From Candidatus Rokubacteria bacterium 13_2_20CM_69_15_1 (GTDB lineage: Bacteria > Methylomirabilota > Methylomirabilia > Rokubacteriales > CSP1-6): a stretch of DNA of 35,497 bases. The stretch is from assembly GCA_001914535.1 (NCBI GenBank), contig MNCR01000068.1, positions 29,526-65,022 of the forward strand, written 5' to 3'. Every line of letters begins with the position of its first letter. Positions within the stretch are counted from its first letter, which is position 1. Below the pieces are notes generated by a model. That model was not told the DNA's origin and did no database searches. It worked only from the letters and a program-made list of their open reading frames with translations. Positions 6,882 to 35,497 of the stretch are shown here, piece by piece. The position numbers and the translations under genes were made by a program.

Positions 6882-9371
6882 ATGTCGACCGATCGATATC
6901 CATATCGAGAGATCGAGGCCAGGTGGCAGCACCGCTGGGAGGAGGCCAAGCAGTTCCGCGCCACCGAGGACCCGGCCCGCCCCAAGTTCTATTGCCTGGA
7001 GATGTTCCCGTATCCCTCCGGCCGGATCCACATGGGCCACGTGCGGGTCTACGCGATCGGCGACCTGCTCGCCCGGTACAAGTGGATGCGCGGCTTCAAC
7101 GTGCTCCACCCGATGGGCTGGGACGCGTTCGGGCTCCCCGCGGAGAACGCCGCGATCGAGCACGGCGTCCACCCGGCGATCTGGACCTACGAAAACATCG
7201 ACAACATGCGGGCCCAGCTCAGGAAAATGGGCATCTCGTACGACTGGGACCGCGAGATCGCGACGTGCGATCCCACGTACTACAAGTGGGAGCAGCTCAT
7301 CTTCATCCGGATGCTCGAGCGCGGGCTCGCGTACCGGAAGCGCTCGACCGTCAACTGGTGTCCCTCCTGCCAGACGGTCCTGGCCAACGAGCAGGTCGAG
7401 GACGGCCGCTGCTGGCGGTGCGACTCCGAAGTGACACCGCGCGAGATCGACGGCTGGTTCTTCAAGATCACCGCGTACGCCGAGGAGTTGCTCGCCTGGT
7501 GCGACCGGCTCCCCGGCTGGCCCGAGCGCGTGCTCACGATGCAGCGGAACTGGATCGGCCGGAGCGAGGGCGCCGAGTTCGACCTTCCGGTAGCCGGGCG
7601 GCCCGCGGTCAAGATCCGCGTGTTCACCACGCGCCCAGACACCGCCTTCGGCATGACGTACGCCGTGCTCGCGCCCGAGCACCCGCTCGTGGACCGGCTC
7701 GTCGTCGACGAGCGCGAGCGGGCCGCCGTCGCGGCGTTCCGCGCCGAGGTCGCAAAGGAGTCGGAGATCGAGCGCCTCGCCGCCGATCGGCCCAAGCGCG
7801 GTTTCCGTCTCCAGGCCCGCGTCGTCAACCCGTTCAACGGGGCGGAGATCCCCCTCTTCCTCGCCGACTACGTGCTGATGGGTTACGGCACGGGCGCGAT
7901 CATGGCGGTGCCGGGCGAGGACCAGCGCGACTGGGACTTCGCCAAGCAGCACGGCCTGCCGATCGTCGAGACCGTCACGCGCCCCGACGGGTGGTCGGGC
8001 GGAGCCTACGCGGGCGACGGAATCAAGATCAACTCAGGCTTCCTCGACGGTCTCACCGTCGCCGCGGCGAAGCGGCGGGCGATCGACTGGCTCGTGGCGA
8101 ACGGGCTCGGCGAGGCGACGGTGAACTACCGGCTCCGCGACTGGGGGATCAGCCGCCAGCGGTACTGGGGCGCGCCGATCCCCGTGCTGTATTGCGAGGC
8201 GTGTGGGATGGTGCCCGAGGCGGAGGAAAACCTCCCTGTCGTCCTCCCGCGCGACGTGCAGATCAGCGGCAAGGGCGGCTCGCCGCTGGCCGAGGTCGCG
8301 AGCTTCGTCAACGCCAAGTGCCCGCGCTGCCGTGGCCGCGCGCGCCGCGAGACGGACACGATGGACACGTTCGTCGAGTCGTCGTGGTACTTCCTGCGCT
8401 ACTGCTCGCCGCGATACGAGGGCGGCATGGTCGAGCGGGCCGCCGCCGACTACTGGATGCCCGTGGACCAGTACATCGGCGGGATCGAGCACGCCGTCCT
8501 CCACCTCCTCTACGCGCGCTTCTACACGAAGGTCCTCCGTGACCTCCGGCTCATCAAGCTCGACGAGCCGTTCACCGCGCTCCTCTCGCAGGGGATGGTG
8601 ATCAAGGACGGCGCCAAGATGTCCAAGTCCAAGGGCAACATCGTGGATCCGGACGAGCTGATCCGCACGTTCGGCGCCGACACGGCGCGCCTCTTCTCGC
8701 TCTTCGCCGCGCCCCCCGAGAAAGATCTCGACTGGAACGACCACGGCGTCGAGGGTGCCTCGCGCTTCCTCAACCGCGTCTGGCGCTTCGTGATCGGCCA
8801 TCTCGACGAGCTCAAGGCTCCCGGGGCCACCGCGCGCGGCGTGCCCGCGTCGGAGGACGGCCGGGCGTTTCGGCGGGTCATCCACGACACGATCCGGCGC
8901 GTCACCGACGACATCGAGCACGACTTCCACTTCAACACCGCGATCAGCGCGGTCATGGAGCTGGTCAACGCGCTCTCCGTCTTCGACGGACACCCCGGCG
9001 GCCGCGTCCCGCCCGCCGAGCGACCGCCGCTCCTGCGCGAGGCGGTGGAGACGATCCTCCGCTTGCTCGGGCCCTTCTGCCCGCACATCACCGAGGAGCT
9101 CTGGTCGCAGCTCGGTCATCGGGAGAGCGTCTTCACGCAGCGCTGGCCGACCCCCGACCCCGACGCGCTCAAGAGGGAGGAGGTCACGGTGGTCGTGCAG
9201 GTGGACGGCAGGGTGCGCGGCCGGCTCCTCGTGGGCGTCGACGCCTCGGAGGAGCGGATCCGGCAGCTCGCGTTGGCCGACGAACGGGTGAGGCCGTGGG
9301 TGGCCTCGCGCCGCGTGGAGAAGGTCGTCGTCGTGCCGAACCGGCTCGTCAACATCGTGACGCGCGCATGA
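6882..9371 (+). CDS. leuS: Leucyl-tRNA synthetase
   Basis: 829 aa; PYPSGRIHMGH (HIGH), Zn motif CPSCQTVLANEQVEDGRCWRC, KMSKSKGN. Confidence 0.97.
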   Translation: MSTDRYPYREIEARWQHRWEEAKQFRATEDPARPKFYCLEMFPYPSGRIHMGHVRVYAIGDLLARYKWMRGFNVLHPMGWDAFGLPAENAAIEHGVHPAIWTYENIDNMRAQLRKMGISYDWDREIATCDPTYYKWEQLIFIRMLERGLAYRKRSTVNWCPSCQTVLANEQVEDGRCWRCDSEVTPREIDGWFFKITAYAEELLAWCDRLPGWPERVLTMQRNWIGRSEGAEFDLPVAGRPAVKIRVFTTRPDTAFGMTYAVLAPEHPLVDRLVVDERERAAVAAFRAEVAKESEIERLAADRPKRGFRLQARVVNPFNGAEIPLFLADYVLMGYGTGAIMAVPGEDQRDWDFAKQHGLPIVETVTRPDGWSGGAYAGDGIKINSGFLDGLTVAAAKRRAIDWLVANGLGEATVNYRLRDWGISRQRYWGAPIPVLYCEACGMVPEAEENLPVVLPRDVQISGKGGSPLAEVASFVNAKCPRCRGRARRETDTMDTFVESSWYFLRYCSPRYEGGMVERAAADYWMPVDQYIGGIEHAVLHLLYARFYTKVLRDLRLIKLDEPFTALLSQGMVIKDGAKMSKSKGNIVDPDELIRTFGADTARLFSLFAAPPEKDLDWNDHGVEGASRFLNRVWRFVIGHLDELKAPGATARGVPASEDGRAFRRVIHDTIRRVTDDIEHDFHFNTAISAVMELVNALSVFDGHPGGRVPPAERPPLLREAVETILRLLGPFCPHITEELWSQLGHRESVFTQRWPTPDPDALKREEVTVVVQVDGRVRGRLLVGVDASEERIRQLALADERVRPWVASRRVEKVVVVPNRLVNIVTRA

Positions 9372-9871
9372 CGCTGCGGGCCCCGGCGCTCGTGGTCGCG
9401 GTGGCGGCGCTCGCCGGCTGCGGCTATTCGCTCCGCGGTAACCTCCCGGACCGCATCAAGACCGTCGCCGTCCCGGTGTTCGTGAACCGGACCTCCGAGC
9501 CCGCGGTGGAGAACTTCCTCACCCAGGCGGTCGTGCACGCGTTCTCGACCAACGGCCGTCTGCGGGTCGTCAAGCCGGAGGAGGCGGACGCGCTCCTCGA
9601 GGGCGAGGTCGTGGGCTATCAGATCCAGCCACTCGCGCTCGACCCGCGCGCCAACATCCAGCAGTACCGGCTCCTCGTCACGATGAATCTGAAGATGCGC
9701 GACGTGCGACGCAACACGCTGCTGTTCGAGCAGGCGCGGTTCCAGGAGAAGTCCGACTTCCGGGTGGTCGGCGCGGTCTCACAGACGATTGCCCGGGAGG
9801 AGACCGCGTTGCAGGCGGCGGCGGTGGACATCGCACGGGCGATCGTGAGCCTCGCGATCGACCGCTTCTGA
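9368..9871 (+). CDS. lptE: LPS-assembly lipoprotein LptE-like
   Basis: ATG at 9368 (ATGA overlap with leuS); MTLRAPALVVAVAALAGCGYSLRGNLPDRIKTVAVPVFVNRT has a lipobox LAGC and the LptE family pattern. Confidence 0.82.
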   Translation: MTLRAPALVVAVAALAGCGYSLRGNLPDRIKTVAVPVFVNRTSEPAVENFLTQAVVHAFSTNGRLRVVKPEEADALLEGEVVGYQIQPLALDPRANIQQYRLLVTMNLKMRDVRRNTLLFEQARFQEKSDFRVVGAVSQTIAREETALQAAAVDIARAIVSLAIDRF

Positions 9872-19214: not shown

Positions 19215-20213
19215 ATGGGAAGCCCCTCGGCTCTCGATACCATGACCCGGCGCGACCTGCGACAGCTGGCCGAGCGCGTCCTCCGCCTCGAGGCCGAGGC
19301 GATCCTCGGGCTGATCCCGAAGCTCGACGCGAGCTTCGATCGCGCCGTCGATTTGCTCCACCGCTGCACCGGGCGCGTCGTCGTGACCGGCATGGGCAAG
19401 TCGGGGCTGGTCGGGCGCAAGATCGCCGCGACACTCGCCTCGACGGGGACGCCGGCGTACTTCCTCCATCCCGCCGAGGGCGTCCACGGCGACATCGGCA
19501 TGGTGGCACGTGGCGATGTCGTCCTGGCGCTCTCGAACTCGGGGGAGACGGACGAAGTCCTCGCGATCCTGCCGCCCCTCAAGCGGCTCGGCGTGCCGAT
19601 CGTGCTCCTGACGGGGAGCCCGACCTCTCCGCTGGCGCGCCAGTGCGAGGTGGTGCTCGACGTGAGCGTCCCCGAGGAGGCGTGTCCGATGAACCTCACG
19701 CCGACGTCGAGCACCACCGCGGCGCTCGCCGCGGGCGACGCGCTCGCGATGGTCCTGCTGGAGCTGCGCGGGCTCAAGCCCGAGGACTACGCGGCGCTCC
19801 ACCCGCGCGGCACCCTCGGCTGGCGCGCGCTGGTTCGTGTTGCCGACCTGATGCTCACCGGAGACTCCATTCCCGTCGTGAGCCAGGCGATGCCGCTGCG
19901 CGAGGTCATCGTGGAGATGACGAAGAAGCGCAAGGGCGTGACGACCGTGGTGGACGCCGCGGGCCGCCTCGCCGGCGTCATCACGGACGGCGATCTACGC
20001 CGGCTCCACCTGCGCGGCACGCCGATCGACGTCCTGTGCGCGGGCGAGGTCGCGGCGCGCGAGCCGAAGACGATTCACGCCGACGATCTCGCCGCCAAGG
20101 CGCTCGAAGTGATGGAGAAGTGGGAGATCACGAGCCTTGTGATCGTCGACGCCGACCGTCGGCCCGTCGGCCTCATTCATCTGCACGACATCCTGCGCGC
20201 GAAAATCGTCTAG
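19215..20213 (+). CDS. kdsD: Arabinose-5-phosphate isomerase (KdsD/KpsF, SIS + CBS domains)
   Basis: 332 aa; VVVTGMGKSGLVGRKIAATLASTGTPAYFLHPAEGVHGDIGM, ALSNSGETDEV, C-terminal CBS pair. Confidence 0.95.
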   Translation: MGSPSALDTMTRRDLRQLAERVLRLEAEAILGLIPKLDASFDRAVDLLHRCTGRVVVTGMGKSGLVGRKIAATLASTGTPAYFLHPAEGVHGDIGMVARGDVVLALSNSGETDEVLAILPPLKRLGVPIVLLTGSPTSPLARQCEVVLDVSVPEEACPMNLTPTSSTTAALAAGDALAMVLLELRGLKPEDYAALHPRGTLGWRALVRVADLMLTGDSIPVVSQAMPLREVIVEMTKKRKGVTTVVDAAGRLAGVITDGDLRRLHLRGTPIDVLCAGEVAAREPKTIHADDLAAKALEVMEKWEITSLVIVDADRRPVGLIHLHDILRAKIV

Positions 20214-20293
20214 GACGCCGTTTTCCCTTCTCGCGCCGAACGGGCTGTGATAGGCTGGTACCGAATTTGCATCTACGTTCGATACTCCGATTG

Positions 20294-20875
20294 ATGACGT
20301 CGTACAATCCCCGACTAAGCGATCCACGACGCTTGGCCGGCGTAATCCTCGCTGTCGTGGCGGTGTTCGTGATCGGCGTGGCCGGCACGCTGGTCGCGAA
20401 GAGCCGAACGGTGCGCGTCGAGCCCGCGGGACCAGCGGCCTCCAGCGCCGACCTCCACATTAAAGAGGTCGAGCTGGAGGAAGTGTCGGGGGGCGTGCGC
20501 TGGCGGCTCAAGGCCGAGCAGGCCCTCGTGTTCGAGCCGCAAGGGCGCACGGCGCTCAGGAAGATCGCGGTGAACGTCTTCGAGCGGGACCGCTCGTGGA
20601 CGATGGTCGGCGAAGAAGGGGACCTCTTTCAAGCGACGGGCAACGTGGAGATCCGGCGAAACGTGGTGTTGACCTCCAGCGACGGGATGCGGCTCGAGAC
20701 GAGCGTGCTCCGGTGGCAGGGCGCCGAGCGCCGGCTCTGGACCGACGCGCCTGTCCGCCTCTCGGACGGCGGTACGGTGGTGGACGGGACGGCACTCGAT
20801 GTGCGCCTGGGGGGCGAGACCGCGACGGTGGCCGGGCGCGTGCGCGCCACCTTCGCGCGACACCCGCGGCGATGA
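20294..20875 (+). CDS. lptC: LPS export system protein LptC-like
   Basis: 193 aa, N-terminal TM helix then ADLHIKEVELEEVSGGVRWRLKAEQALVFEPQGRTALRKIAVNVFERD; position directly before lptA-lptB. Confidence 0.85.
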   Translation: MTSYNPRLSDPRRLAGVILAVVAVFVIGVAGTLVAKSRTVRVEPAGPAASSADLHIKEVELEEVSGGVRWRLKAEQALVFEPQGRTALRKIAVNVFERDRSWTMVGEEGDLFQATGNVEIRRNVVLTSSDGMRLETSVLRWQGAERRLWTDAPVRLSDGGTVVDGTALDVRLGGETATVAGRVRATFARHPRR

Positions 20876-21438
20876 AGCGCTGGGCCACGCAGGTACCGGC
20901 CATCGCGCTCGGGCTCGCGGCCCTCACGATCCCCACGCACGTTCCCGCGCAGGGGGCTCCACCGGCCGGCGCCGGGGCGAAGGCCGATGGGCGCCAGCCC
21001 CTCACGGTCGACGCCGACCGGATGGAGCGGTTGGGCAAGGAGAGTCTCGTCATCTTTACCGGGAACGTCGTCGCCCGCCACGACAACTCGGTCCAGTACG
21101 CCGACCGGATGGAGATCTACCTCAACGAGAAGGGCGGCCGCGTGCTCCGGAGCGTCTCGACGGGCGGCGTCCGCGTGATCACGCGCGACTGCCGTACCGC
21201 CACGGCCACGCGCGCGGAGTACCTCGACCTCGAGCAGCGCGTGGTCCTCATCGGCAACGCGCGCGTCTGGCAGGACGACAACGTGGTCAGCGGCGACACG
21301 ATCACGATCGACCTTTCCCAGGACCGCTCCGTCGTCCAGGGCGGTAAGCAGGAACGCGTGAAGGCCGTCTTCTATCCCCGCGGAGACGGCAAGAAGGACG
21401 ACGGGGGTCGTAGGTCCGGCGAGCCCTGCACCAACTGA
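20872..21438 (+). CDS. lptA: LPS transport periplasmic protein LptA (OstA-like)
   Basis: Signal peptide; PLTVDADRMERLGKESLVIFTGNVVARHDNSVQYADRMEIYL. ATGA overlap with lptC. Confidence 0.9.
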   Translation: MKRWATQVPAIALGLAALTIPTHVPAQGAPPAGAGAKADGRQPLTVDADRMERLGKESLVIFTGNVVARHDNSVQYADRMEIYLNEKGGRVLRSVSTGGVRVITRDCRTATATRAEYLDLEQRVVLIGNARVWQDDNVVSGDTITIDLSQDRSVVQGGKQERVKAVFYPRGDGKKDDGGRRSGEPCTN

Positions 21439-21456: not shown

Positions 21457-22179
21457 ATGGAAGGGCTCGTCGCGCAGGGGCTCGTGAAGTGGTTCAAGAG
21501 CCGAAAGGTCGTCAACGACGTGTCGCTCGACATCCAGCGCGGAGAGGTCGTCGGTCTCCTGGGCCCGAATGGCGCGGGCAAGACGACGTCGTTCTACATG
21601 ATGGTGGGGCTCCTGCCGACCGATGGCGGCCGCATCTTCCTCGAGGGGGACGAGATCTCGCGCCTGCCCATGTACGCGCGCTGCCGCATGGGCATCGGGT
21701 ACCTGCCGCAGGAGTCGTCGGTCTTCCGCAAGCTCACCGTCGAGGAGAACCTTCTGGCGATCCTCGAGACGCTTGACTTGTCGAGCGACGAGCGCCGGCA
21801 GCGAGCGCGCGAGCTCCTGGCCGAGCTCGACCTGACACCGCTGGCGCCGTATCCCGCCTACACGCTCTCGGGCGGCGAGCGGCGGCGGCTCGAGATCACC
21901 CGCGCGCTCGTCACGTCGCCGCAGTACCTGCTGCTCGACGAGCCCTTCACGGGCATCGACCCGATCGCGATCGGCGACATCCAGGAGATCGTCGGCCGGC
22001 TGCGCGAGCGCGGCATCGGGATCCTCATCACGGACCACAACGTGCGTGAGACGCTCGCGATCACCGATCGCGCGTACATCCTCTACGATGGCAGGATTCT
22101 GGTGTCCGGCACCGCCGCCGAGATCGCCAACAACCCCGTCGCGCGCGAGATCTACCTCGGCGACCGGTTCACCCTCTAG
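21457..22179 (+). CDS. lptB: LPS export ABC transporter ATPase LptB
   Basis: 240 aa; [75 protein letters not shown]. Confidence 0.97.
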
Positions 22180-30325: not shown

Positions 30326-33028
30326 ATGAATCGCGGCCAACCTGTCGTCCTGCTGCTGCTCCTGTTCCTGGCCCTGAGCCTCGTCGCCCAGTTCGTCCCG
30401 CTCTACACCGACTGGCTCTGGTTTCAGGAGGTCGGCTATACCGAGGTCTTTACCACCACGCTCGCCCTCCGCGGGTCACTCTTCGCAGGGCTGGCGGTCG
30501 GCGTCCTCATCTTCCTCTACGTCAACCTGACCTTCGCGGCGCGAACCGCCGCGCCCGACGTGATCTGGGAGCTCGAGGACCAGCTGGGCCTGCCGGGGCG
30601 GGTGGTGATCGAGCCGCTGATCCGCCGCTTCCTCCCGGTCGTGCTCCTCGCGATCTCGCTCGTGGCGGGGTTGCGCGCGACCGTCCACTGGGAGACGGTG
30701 CTCGGGTATCTCAACGCCGTCGAGTTCGGCCGGAGCGACCCGCTGTTCGGCCGCGACCTCGCGTTCTTCGTCTTCGTCCTTCCGTTCTGGCGGCTCGTGT
30801 ACGGCTGGGCGATCACGCTGATCATGAGCACGATCGTCCTGACGCTCGCCGTCTACGTCCTGCAGCGGAGCCTGGTCCTCACGACGCGCGGACCGCGCCT
30901 GGCGGCCGGCGCCCGGACGCATCTCTTGGCGCTCGGCGCGCTGGCGTTGGCCGTCAGGGCCGGCGGCTTCTGGCTCGACCGGTTCGAGGTGGTCTTCTCA
31001 CCCCGCGGGATCGTGTTCGGCGCCGCGTACACGGACACCTACGCCTCACTGCCGGCCCTCGGCGTGCTCGCGGTGGTCAGCGCCGTCGCCGCCGCGGCGT
31101 GTCTCGTACAGATCACCCGCGCCGGCCTCCGCCTCGTGGCGGGCGGCCTGATCGTCCTCGGCCTGGTCTGGGTGATTGGCCTCGGCATCTACCCCGCGCT
31201 GCTGCAGCGCTTCAGCGTGACGCCGAACGAGCTCGTCGCCGAGCGGCCGTTCATCGAGCACAACATCCGAATGACGCGCCAGGCGTACGGCCTCGACCGG
31301 ATCGAGGAGCGAAGCTTCCCGGCCGACGAGACCCTCGACGCCCGGGCCCTCGAGCGGAACGCACCGACGATCGAGAACATCAGGCTCTGGGACCACCGCC
31401 CGCTGCTGCGCACGTTCGGCCAGCTCCAGGAGATCCGCACCTACTACAAGTTCGTCGACGTCGACAACGACCGGTACTCGCTCAACGGCGAGTACAAACA
31501 GCTCATGCTCTCGAGTCGGGAGCTGTCGTACGCGCACCTCCAGTCGCGCATCTGGATCAACGAGCACCTGACCTTCACCCATGGCTACGGCGTCGTCGTC
31601 GGACCCGTGGCGCGAATCACGCCGGAGGGGCTGCCCGAGTTCCTGGTGAAGGACATCCCCCCACAGTCGAGCGGCGGCTTTCCGGCGATCACGCGCCCCG
31701 AGATCTACTTCGGCGAAGTGTCGAACGAGTACGCGCTGGTGCGCACGCGGCAGCAAGAGCTGAACTACCCGTCCGGCGACCAGAATGTCTACACGACGTA
31801 CAGTGGCACGGGCGGGATCCCGATCGGCGCCTTCGCTCGGAAGATCCTGTTCGCGATCCGGTTCGGCGAGATCAAGATCCTCCTCGCCAATGACCTCACC
31901 GCCGATAGCCGGATCATGATCTATCGCGCGGTCGTCCCACGCGTCCGCCAAATCGCGCCGTTCTTTCGATTCGATCGCGACCCGTACATGGTGGTCGCGG
32001 ACGACGGCCGTCTCGTGTGGATGCTCGACGGTTACACGACGACGGACCGCTACCCGTACTCGGACCCCGTCCCCGGCGTGGGCAACTACGTGCGCAACTC
32101 CGTGAAGGTGACGATCGACGCCTACCACGGAACCGTGCGGTTTTACCTCGCGGATCCGACCGACCCGATCGTGCGCGCCTATGGACGCGCGTTCCGCGGG
32201 CTATTCCAGCCGCTCGACGCGATGCCCGCGGACCTGCGCGCGCACATCCGCTACCCCGAAGACTTCTTCTCGATCCAGGCACGGAAATACGCCACGTACC
32301 ACATGAAGGACCCGCAGGTGTTCTACAACAAGGAGGACCTCTGGACCCTCCCGCGGCGGGCGGTCGAGGGACGCGAGCGGGACATGGAGCCGTACTACAC
32401 GATCATGCGGCTGCCGGGCGAGCGGAAAGAGGAGTTCATCCTGCTCACGCTCTACAACCCGAGCCGTCGCGACAACATGATCGCCTGGCTCGCCGCCCGC
32501 TCGGATCCGCCGAACTACGGCAAGCTGCTCGTCTATGACTTTCCGAAGCAGAAGCTGGTCTTCGGCCCGCGCCAGATCGACGCGCGGATCGATCAGGATC
32601 CGGTGATCTCGCAGCAGCTCTCGCTCTGGAACCAGCGCGGCTCCACGGTGATTCGCGGATCGCTGCTGGCGATCCCGCTCGATCAGTCACTGATCTACGT
32701 CCAGCCGCTCTATCTCGCCGCGTCGGAGCAGGGGGCTTTGCCCGAGCTCCGTCGCGTGATCGTCGCCCACGGCAACGCGATCGCGATGGAGCCGACGCTC
32801 CAGCAGTCGCTCGCACGGATCTTCGGCGGCCGCGCGCCGACTGCGGCGCGCGGGGCGGCGGCGCCCTCGGCGGCGCTCGACACGGCGGAGACGCGGCCTC
32901 TCGCGCAGCGGGCACTGGAGATCTGGAACCGCGCCCAGGACGCGCTGCGGCGAGGGGACTGGGCGAGCTACGGAACCGAGCAGAAGCGGCTGGAGGAGAC
33001 GCTCCGCGCCCTCGCGCAGTCCAAGTAG
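30326..33028 (+). CDS. UPF0182 family membrane protein (COG1615)
   Basis: 900 aa; N-terminal TM helices with YTDWLWFQEVGYTEVF, later QAYGLDRIEERSFPA, TYYKFVDVDNDRYSLNGEYKQLMLSSREL. Confidence 0.9.
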   Translation: MNRGQPVVLLLLLFLALSLVAQFVPLYTDWLWFQEVGYTEVFTTTLALRGSLFAGLAVGVLIFLYVNLTFAARTAAPDVIWELEDQLGLPGRVVIEPLIRRFLPVVLLAISLVAGLRATVHWETVLGYLNAVEFGRSDPLFGRDLAFFVFVLPFWRLVYGWAITLIMSTIVLTLAVYVLQRSLVLTTRGPRLAAGARTHLLALGALALAVRAGGFWLDRFEVVFSPRGIVFGAAYTDTYASLPALGVLAVVSAVAAAACLVQITRAGLRLVAGGLIVLGLVWVIGLGIYPALLQRFSVTPNELVAERPFIEHNIRMTRQAYGLDRIEERSFPADETLDARALERNAPTIENIRLWDHRPLLRTFGQLQEIRTYYKFVDVDNDRYSLNGEYKQLMLSSRELSYAHLQSRIWINEHLTFTHGYGVVVGPVARITPEGLPEFLVKDIPPQSSGGFPAITRPEIYFGEVSNEYALVRTRQQELNYPSGDQNVYTTYSGTGGIPIGAFARKILFAIRFGEIKILLANDLTADSRIMIYRAVVPRVRQIAPFFRFDRDPYMVVADDGRLVWMLDGYTTTDRYPYSDPVPGVGNYVRNSVKVTIDAYHGTVRFYLADPTDPIVRAYGRAFRGLFQPLDAMPADLRAHIRYPEDFFSIQARKYATYHMKDPQVFYNKEDLWTLPRRAVEGRERDMEPYYTIMRLPGERKEEFILLTLYNPSRRDNMIAWLAARSDPPNYGKLLVYDFPKQKLVFGPRQIDARIDQDPVISQQLSLWNQRGSTVIRGSLLAIPLDQSLIYVQPLYLAASEQGALPELRRVIVAHGNAIAMEPTLQQSLARIFGGRAPTAARGAAAPSAALDTAETRPLAQRALEIWNRAQDALRRGDWASYGTEQKRLEETLRALAQSK

Positions 33029-33075: not shown

Positions 33076-35433
33076 TCAGGTGCGGGCGCGGAGGAGCAAC
33101 GAGACGCCGAGCCCGAGGAAGATGATGTTCGCCGTCCACGCGGCGAGGAGCGGGGGCAGGAGATCGGCGCGGGCGAAGGCGAGCGCGACGTAGTGCACGA
33201 CGAGGTAGCCGGCCATGATCGCGAGCGCGAGGCCGACGCCGAAGAGCCGCCCACCGCGCGGTGACTGGAGCGCGAAGGGAATCGCCACGAGAACCATGAC
33301 CAGGTTGACGAGCGGGAACGAGAGTTTCGCGTACAGCTCGACGAGATACTTGCGGACCTGGAAGCCCGCCGCCTCGAGCTGAGCCACGTAGTCCTTGAGC
33401 TCGAGGTAGCTCATGGACGTCACCGGCTTCTGGATTCGGATGAAGTCGTCGATCTCCTCTTTGGTGTCGAGCGCGGTCCACACGAACGGCACCGTCTGCA
33501 CCTTCCCGTCGGGACTGAGCTCCCGAAACGCGCCCTCGCTGAGCTCCCAGCCCACCGGCGTCCAGTGGGCGCGCCGCGCGTCGAGGCGGTCGACCAGGCG
33601 AAACTCGCGGTCCACCTCGAGGATCGTGACGCCGTACATATCGTTCGTCCCCGGGTGGAGGAGCTCCACGCGGAAGAAGCGGCTGTCGGAGCTGCGCACC
33701 CACAGATGGAGCCGCGACTGCAGATGCCGCGGCGCCTGGCCGCGGATCTTCACGCGGTCCACTTCCTCGCCGCGCTCGTTCAGCACGGGCAGCACCAGCT
33801 CCTGGAAGAGCCCCGCGCCGATCGCCGCGGCGATCCCGAGGCCCACGATCGGGACGCTCACGCGGTAGAGGCTCACGCCGGCCGCCTTCAGGGCGGTCAG
33901 CTCGTGGTGCTTCGAGAGCGTCAGATAGAGGAAGATCGTCGCGACCAGCACGATCGCGGGGAGTGCCTCGTGGAGCGCGGCCGGGACACGGTAGGCGAAG
34001 TGCTCGGCGATGTACAGGAGTGGCGGCTTGATCCGGAGGTATCGGTCGAGCGTCTGCAGGAGGTCGATGACCACGAAGAGGACGGCCGCCACGGCAAGCC
34101 CGAATCCCGTGAAGGTCAGGTACTCGCGGACGAGATAGCGGTCGACGATGTGCGTCGAGTGACGTGCCTGGGGTGACTCGTGGAGCCGACCGTGGCGCAT
34201 CGGGTGGCGCGGCTCCCGACCGCCGAGCGCCTCCAGCAGGCGCCACAGGAGCGGCAGCGCGGGCGCGCGCCACTCGCGGGCCGTTGCCACGAGAAAGCCC
34301 CCACCGACGAGGGTGAAGAGCGCGTTCGGCGCCCAGATGGCGATCCCCGCGGGGACCTGCAGCCGGAGCGCCGCGCCCTCGAGCGACGTCATGACGAGGT
34401 AGTAGGTGAGGAGGATCGCGAGGCTCCCCGCGAAGGCAACCGACCGGCCACCGCGATGCGAGCGGATCGCGAGCGGGAACGCGACGAGCGCGAAGACTAG
34501 CGCCGCGAGGGGGAGCGCGAAGCGCTTGTGGAGCTCGATCAGGTAGGGCGCGCGCCCGTGCCGGTCGGCCCGGAGGTCTGCGACCCGCGCGGCGAGCTCG
34601 GCGAGCGTCAGGTCCTTCTCCGGCTTCTCGATACGCGGCGCGCCCTTCAGCGGGGAGTCCACTGACAGGTTCAGGTCGTAGACCCCGAAGAGGGTGTAGC
34701 GGTAGCGGGCGGCGCTCGCCGCACCACCCGACGTCGCGTCCTTCGACAGGCCCTTGGGCGGGTCCGCCGGCATCACGTCGGCCTCGCTCACGGCACCGTT
34801 CAACAGGCGGAGCGTGATACGCCGGTCCAGCTCGTCGGTCAGGAGCCTTCCCTCGCGCGCCGTGATGATGCGAGAGAGCTTCGGGTCGCGCTCGTCGGAG
34901 ACGAGGAGCCCGCGCAGGGCGACCTGCGAGGCGCTCACGTCCTCGACGTAGATGATCACGTCTCCGAAGGTCGTGTTGAAGACACGCTCCTGGAGCCCGC
35001 TCGCCGCACGGGCCTGGACGATCCTGAACAGCTGGCGCTGGAACTCCCGATTCGCCAGCGGGTTCACGGCGAGCGTGAGGCCGGCCGTGACCCCAGTGAT
35101 GACCAGGGCGACCGCGAGCACGGGTCGGAACAGGCGGAACGCGCTCACCCCCGCCGCTTTGAGCGCGATGATCTCGAGATCGCCGGCCAGGCGACCGCCA
35201 GCCAGGAGGATCGCGATCAGGAGCGCCATGGGCAGGGTGTGGGCGAGGAAGGACGGGAGCATGTAGACGAGGAGCTGGACGACCAGGTAGAAGGGCACGC
35301 CCTTCGTCACGACCAAGTCGGTCAGGTGATAGATCCGGTCGATGATGAGGAAGAACGTGAAGAGGGCCCCGCCGAAGGCGAAGGGCGGGATGAGTTCGCT
35401 CACGATGTACCGGTCGAGGACGAGCGACCTCAC
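33076..35433 (-). CDS. Fused LptF-LptG LPS export permease (two LptF/LptG domains in one ORF)
   Basis: 785 aa, GTG start. Internal duplication: LDRYIVSELIPPF / VDRYLVREYLTFTG; EIIALKAAGVSAFRLFRPVL / ELTALKAAGVSLYRVSVPIV; YLIELHKRFALPLAALVFALVAFPLAIRSHRGGR / YLVELYAKLSFPLVNLVMVLVAIPFALQSPRGGR. Confidence 0.92.
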   Translation of the reverse strand: MRSLVLDRYIVSELIPPFAFGGALFTFFLIIDRIYHLTDLVVTKGVPFYLVVQLLVYMLPSFLAHTLPMALLIAILLAGGRLAGDLEIIALKAAGVSAFRLFRPVLAVALVITGVTAGLTLAVNPLANREFQRQLFRIVQARAASGLQERVFNTTFGDVIIYVEDVSASQVALRGLLVSDERDPKLSRIITAREGRLLTDELDRRITLRLLNGAVSEADVMPADPPKGLSKDATSGGAASAARYRYTLFGVYDLNLSVDSPLKGAPRIEKPEKDLTLAELAARVADLRADRHGRAPYLIELHKRFALPLAALVFALVAFPLAIRSHRGGRSVAFAGSLAILLTYYLVMTSLEGAALRLQVPAGIAIWAPNALFTLVGGGFLVATAREWRAPALPLLWRLLEALGGREPRHPMRHGRLHESPQARHSTHIVDRYLVREYLTFTGFGLAVAAVLFVVIDLLQTLDRYLRIKPPLLYIAEHFAYRVPAALHEALPAIVLVATIFLYLTLSKHHELTALKAAGVSLYRVSVPIVGLGIAAAIGAGLFQELVLPVLNERGEEVDRVKIRGQAPRHLQSRLHLWVRSSDSRFFRVELLHPGTNDMYGVTILEVDREFRLVDRLDARRAHWTPVGWELSEGAFRELSPDGKVQTVPFVWTALDTKEEIDDFIRIQKPVTSMSYLELKDYVAQLEAAGFQVRKYLVELYAKLSFPLVNLVMVLVAIPFALQSPRGGRLFGVGLALAIMAGYLVVHYVALAFARADLLPPLLAAWTANIIFLGLGVSLLLRART

Positions 35434-35455
35434 CGCTCTGTTGTACCATAGCCAC

Positions 35456-35497
35456 GTGGACCGGCCCTCGCGAGAGCTCCTGACGGTCGCGCTCGTC
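35456..35497 (+). CDS. Possible 5' end of a divergent CDS running off the window
   Basis: Open GTG frame VDRPSRELLTVALV to the window edge; too short to assign. Confidence 0.25.
   Translation, partial: MDRPSRELLTVALV

Follow-up and report, generated by a model that had tools for sequence, protein, structure and literature searches.

The LPS-extracting ABC transporter LptB2FG(C) has been solved in E. coli, Vibrio, Klebsiella, Pseudomonas and Acinetobacter, and in solved LptB2FG the ratio of LptF to LptG is 1:1. In the solved complexes the transmembrane (TM) helix of LptC is placed between LptF TM5 and LptG TM1 (PMC6744409; PMC10094684), and the E. coli coupling helices contact LptB through glutamates E84 of LptF and E88 of LptG (PMC10094684). 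Here we describe a gene, lptFG, in which the two subunits are joined in one frame. It lies in a 35,497-nucleotide stretch of DNA from the soil bacterium Candidatus Rokubacteria bacterium 13_2_20CM_69_15_1 (hereafter the window), and we put at about 85% the probability that it codes, as a single chain, for the transmembrane part of the LPS-extracting ABC transporter, working as LptB2FGC with F and G tethered.

The original prediction of a single 785-aa frame holds as to the frame and its extent but required correction as to strand and start: the gene is read from the minus strand beginning at a GTG, and on the plus strand that frame has stops (Table 1). In an hmmscan search of Pfam the whole protein scored 523.8 bits against PF03739 (cut-off 27.9) over two stretches. 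Its first half scored 321.7 bits against the NCBIfam LptF model TIGR04407 (equivalog cut-off 230) and residues 429–782 scored 345.5 bits against the LptG model TIGR04408 (equivalog cut-off 240). That two full LptF/LptG domains reside in one chain, LptF and then LptG, is borne out by sequence, by relatives and by a structure model, and the two are not encoded as separate polypeptides, there being one frame and no conserved internal start. The halves are joined by a basic linker of about 36–40 residues (PALPLLWRLLEALGGREPRHPMRHGRLHESPQARH and flanks). We checked the proposed linker segment for stops and none is present, and its proposed cytoplasmic location agrees with the sequence, the relatives and the model.

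Table 1. Coordinates of lptFG, its parts and candidate partner genes in the window.
Feature	Position	Strand	Remarks
lptFG fusion gene	33076..35433	(-)	GTG start at 35433, TGA stop at 33078-33076, 785 aa
LptF half	34264..35433	(-)	aa 1-390: six TM helices and jellyroll; TIGR04407 and model
Linker	34156..34272	(-)	aa about 388-426: Arg-rich, predicted disordered, short helix at model residues 392-403
LptG half	33079..34158	(-)	aa 426-785: six TM helices and jellyroll; TIGR04408 and model
Contig-end stretch	33112..35497		99.9% identical to congener G001, vs ~87% in neighbouring part of contig
Frame containing lptE	9296..9871	(+)	PF04390, residues 54-185
lptC	20213..20875	(+)	one N-terminal TM helix; PF06835; start inside frame
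Frame containing lptA	20596..21438	(+)	PF03968, frame residues 138-243; gene start further in
lptB	21457..22179	(+)	ABC ATPase partner, 240 aa; PF00005; adjoins lptA/lptC

An AlphaFold model of the lptFG chain alone, built from 32 sequences and without LptB or LptC, was of moderate confidence (pLDDT 76, pTM 0.70). It contains 12 TM helices together with two jellyrolls and two coupling helices; the linker is loose and of low confidence, with one short helix. The helices of the LptF half span residues 2–41, 47–83, 86–92, 97–141, 290–323, 328–355 and 361–384. Each unit shows six TM helices and a periplasmic jellyroll, both in the model elements and in the Foldseek matches, which are the LptF and LptG chains of solved LptB2FG(C) complexes (target TM 0.6–0.85 at about 20% identity; 6mit_G at 0.85 for LptG and 6mit_F at 0.74 for LptF). 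A phmmer search of the PDB returned the same families. Since no single PDB chain spans both halves, we infer the pairing of F with G. Glu87, in the LptF coupling helix (residues 86–92), is the equivalent of enterobacterial E84, and Glu511, in the coupling helix of the LptG half, is that of E88; both are invariant in the aligned relatives. The basic cluster of LptG TM1 that binds lipid A phosphates (K34, K40 and K41) falls, in a weak alignment, on D457, D463 and R464 of the window's protein, with R467 and K469 nearby. In the same weak alignment, Asp at the position of the LPS-binding Lys34 of enterobacterial LptG is common to the split class-mates.

All four partners of an LptB2FGC system, LptB, LptC, LptA and LptE, are encoded within the window, as are kdsA and kdsD-like genes. 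Convergent to lptFG is a gene for a 900-aa UPF0182 membrane protein (30326–33028), found at the same position in three congeners. Between these two genes in congener G001 lies a dispersed, REP-like palindromic repeat of about 85 bp (L027:6103-6193) that occurs at many intergenic places in all four genomes of the genus (G000–G003).

PF03739 is present in 55 of the 57 genomes of the source genome's GTDB family. We fetched the loci and read the frames, and the LptF–LptG junction is a single open frame in every one of the 54 genomes in which it is assembled, a count that leaves out G045 (terminal fragment only) and G040 and G046 (no match). The gene is broken elsewhere in G005, G031 and G033, with the junction itself open. 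The fusion is also found in two further families of the Rokubacteriales, read in G092 (825 aa) and in G094, where the contig end cuts LptG; G093 was left out. Both halves are spanned by 47 named GTDB records of Candidatus Rokubacteria/Rokuibacteriota (Methylomirabilota), 3 being broken inside a half and 1 ending early. The fusion is a fixed state of the order Rokubacteriales and no peculiarity of one genome. Two findings had been named in advance as speaking against it, namely split genes in all relatives and a stop or frameshift in the linker. Neither was encountered: the family relatives are fused, and the linker is uninterrupted in the window and in the relatives.

Other orders of the Methylomirabilia carry two genes, with lptG either overlapping lptF by 4 bp or starting at most about 40 bp after it. 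Gene order is the same as in the fusion, but the genes are separate, and fused and split forms lie apart in both half-trees. The fused sequences of the phylum form one clade in the LptF tree with a support of 100. In the LptG tree the support is 93, where two distant split paralogues, wrongly labelled fused, fall outside the true fused clade, which itself has 97. Since the fused forms of the phylum make up one clade, they point to one event. The fusion would probably date to the ancestor of the Rokubacteriales, in which a tightly packed lptF–lptG pair lost the stop codon of lptF; pairs packed in this way persist in other orders of the class. Within a split-gene genus of the Methylomirabilia, genome G066 has a 702-aa frame (L097:4397-6502) in which LptF is joined to LptG minus its first 50 residues; a deletion, a frameshift and an independent fusion are candidate explanations for it.

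Fusions are also present in unrelated bacteria. Sampling one genome per family, together with direct reading of frames, we found the fusion in G128, G149 and G150, which belong to a small phylum whose fourth genome was without a match, and in 41 of 41 sampled genomes of the large class of G180, in another lineage. The latter count takes as fused any two units found on one contig with the same frame length, and the frames themselves were read for G180 and G323. In 395 kb sampled from G323, a rough motif screen together with a single family scan turned up no acidobacterial marker, so the class of G180 is not assigned to the Acidobacteriota. In the class of G174 four genomes are fused, one of these being cut by a contig end; further fusions occur in G183 and in G201, whose class-mate G327 is split. 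Examples outside the phylum are the loci L186, L185, L183, L187 and L215, and no plasmid-borne fusion was among the matches listed in a tblastn search with the L186 protein. These proteins have the same order as those of the Rokubacteriales and a similar size (759–901 aa), and their linkers, basic and 43–75 aa long in the five examined, are separately derived. The fused state requires five changes on a tree of concatenated LptF and LptG, at least three of them forced by well-supported branches. A single origin of all fusions is rejected on this tree (delta lnL 233, AU p = 1.8e-5). The Rokubacteriales and G128-type fusions lie apart in it, and a common origin of these two is not rejected in the half-trees (AU p = 0.35 and 0.29). 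The fusion is therefore recurrent, and it is fixed in some lineages. Since F precedes G in the cases examined, the side formed by TM6 of F and TM1 of G, where LptC and LPS enter, is the one tethered each time. Whether this repeated, class-wide fixation in the order F then G in all examined cases reflects selection on gate mechanics or on LptC-independent extraction, and not the drift of compact operons, is a speculation that we consider rather doubtful.

One rival reading is that two genes were merged by a missed stop or frameshift; the terminal position of the window's gene on its contig and its chimera-like match to a congener speak for it. Over 33112–35497 only 2 of 2386 positions differ from G001, as against 87% identity to G001 in the adjoining 4.6 kb of contig C90, and the window ends where C90 ends. 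Another contig of the same genome, C78 (locus L026), begins 82 bp inside another fused lptFG, 86% identical, and continues with genes found upstream of lptFG in G001–G003, which is the expected flank. The simplest reading is that the native lptFG is the copy on C78 and that DNA of a co-occurring relative was appended to the end of C90; the stretch 33112–35497 is thus probably an assembly chimera, a recombination tract or a second copy being the alternatives. The completeness of the genome is 76%. The joint of the chimera, however, falls within the gene at about 35 bp from its 3' end and well away from the linker, the second lptFG of the genome, on C78, is fused as well, and the same single frame recurs in dozens of independent assemblies and in the one-contig genome G323 of another lineage. 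Chance or sequencing error is excluded for the architecture since relatives share the same frame, and with the junction open in their independent assemblies we rejected a missed-stop artefact, to which we give almost no credence. Doubt about the provenance of this copy does not touch the fusion, because all lptFG copies in the genus are fused.

A more serious challenge is that one frame might yield two proteins, with LptG made also or only from a start within the linker, or the chain cut there, and the subunits working separately. Indeed, an in-frame ATG with an upstream GGAG lies inside the linker of the window's copy and of its near twin G001, and a loose, basic linker such as the model predicts is a plausible protease site, cleavage at which would be invisible in sequence. 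Yet about ten genes, the copy on C78 included, lack any ATG, GTG or TTG both in the linker and in the first LptG residues, so that a separate LptG start is not the general rule; elsewhere neither the position of a start nor a motif upstream of it is conserved, and an internal start as a general mechanism was found to be unsupported. Furthermore, the frame is held across an order and arose again elsewhere, whereas two genes independent of each other would lose their common frame over time. The linker is 34–38 aa long in most genera (up to 63 aa), is basic without exception across the fused relatives (net charge +2 to +17, median +6), and opens with a P-A-x-P-x-x-WR motif conserved in many near relatives. 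Most pairwise dN/dS values of the linker are below 1 (for example 0.10/0.43, 0.19/0.52 and 0.23/1.1), with much less constraint than in the LptF and LptG domains, and in a few species divergence over the roughly 35 codons is near neutral (dN about equal to or greater than dS). Such a pattern is what would be expected of a translated tether and shows that the linker is under some selection as protein. Taken together, the conserved linker length, the dN/dS values mostly below 1 and the linkers without start codons argue, at the level of sequence, that LptG is made within one chain, and we regard two separately working subunits as unlikely. Less likely still, and in our view very improbable, is that lptFG encodes a diverged single-chain permease paralogue exporting a lipid other than LPS. 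Identity to solved LptF and LptG is low (about 20%), Lys34 of LptG is replaced by Asp in the weak alignment, and we know of no characterisation of the LPS of Rokubacteria. Against this stand LptF and LptG scores at equivalog level, the presence of lptA, lptB, lptC, lptE and Kdo-synthesis genes in the same window, and the fact that the fused gene is usually the sole LptF/LptG of these genomes. With these partner genes in the same window, the lptFG product most likely works as an ordinary LptB2FG with F and G tethered.

Additional copies were seen in some genomes. G038 (L073) and G041 (L076) have, besides fused lptFG, a second and strongly diverged split PF03739 pair, the two genes adjoining, which is possibly a different lipid exporter. 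G018 has, besides two ordinary copies, a third, long-branched fused LptF–LptG copy of 769 aa (L050:5586-7892).

In a tethered LptB2FGC the two six-helix bundles would take their usual fold and form a pair, and each half would dock one LptB through its own coupling helix, by way of Glu87 and Glu511. The TM helix of LptC would insert at the gate that is flanked by TM5 of the F half on one side and by TM1 of the G half on the other, and LPS would be extracted and then handed to LptC/LptA. The basic linker would connect TM6 of F with TM1 of G on the cytoplasmic side; since the LptC helix sits at TM1 of G and TM5 of F, this would place the linker on the side of the LptC/LPS gate. It would strictly couple the synthesis and pairing of F and G and tether the gate, with no new chemistry implied; the consequences for the gate we infer. 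It is reasonable to suppose, as was originally proposed, that the fusion fixes LptF:LptG at 1:1.

LptB2FG is a drug target that has been studied as a transporter with a two-subunit TMD, and whole lineages build it with a single chain. Fused proteins offer natural single-chain constructs to structural studies, and could be used to ask if F and G need the freedom to come apart at the LptC/LPS gate. In surveys that expect two genes, a fused gene of about 800 aa may score as one orthologue or as neither. According to a survey of outer-membrane genes, Acidobacteria apparently lack lptF and lptG despite being LPS diderms (PMC8871954), and such gaps could stem from fusion. Among open-licence literature we found no paper describing an LptF–LptG fusion, which may have been described elsewhere, and the double LptF–LptG architecture may be in domain databases already.

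Compared with the LptF and LptG of LptB2FG(C), the lptFG product has the same folds, two jellyrolls, the coupling-helix glutamates and the LptB, LptC, LptA and LptE partners, but it is one polypeptide with a basic linker in place of two subunits. Both TMDs are likewise carried in one chain, and so covalently paired, in those ABC exporters known as full transporters; unlike in these, the NBDs (LptB) of the lptFG system stay separate. The fusion is thus a real, clade-fixed and recurrent variant of a well-known transporter and not a categorically new one.
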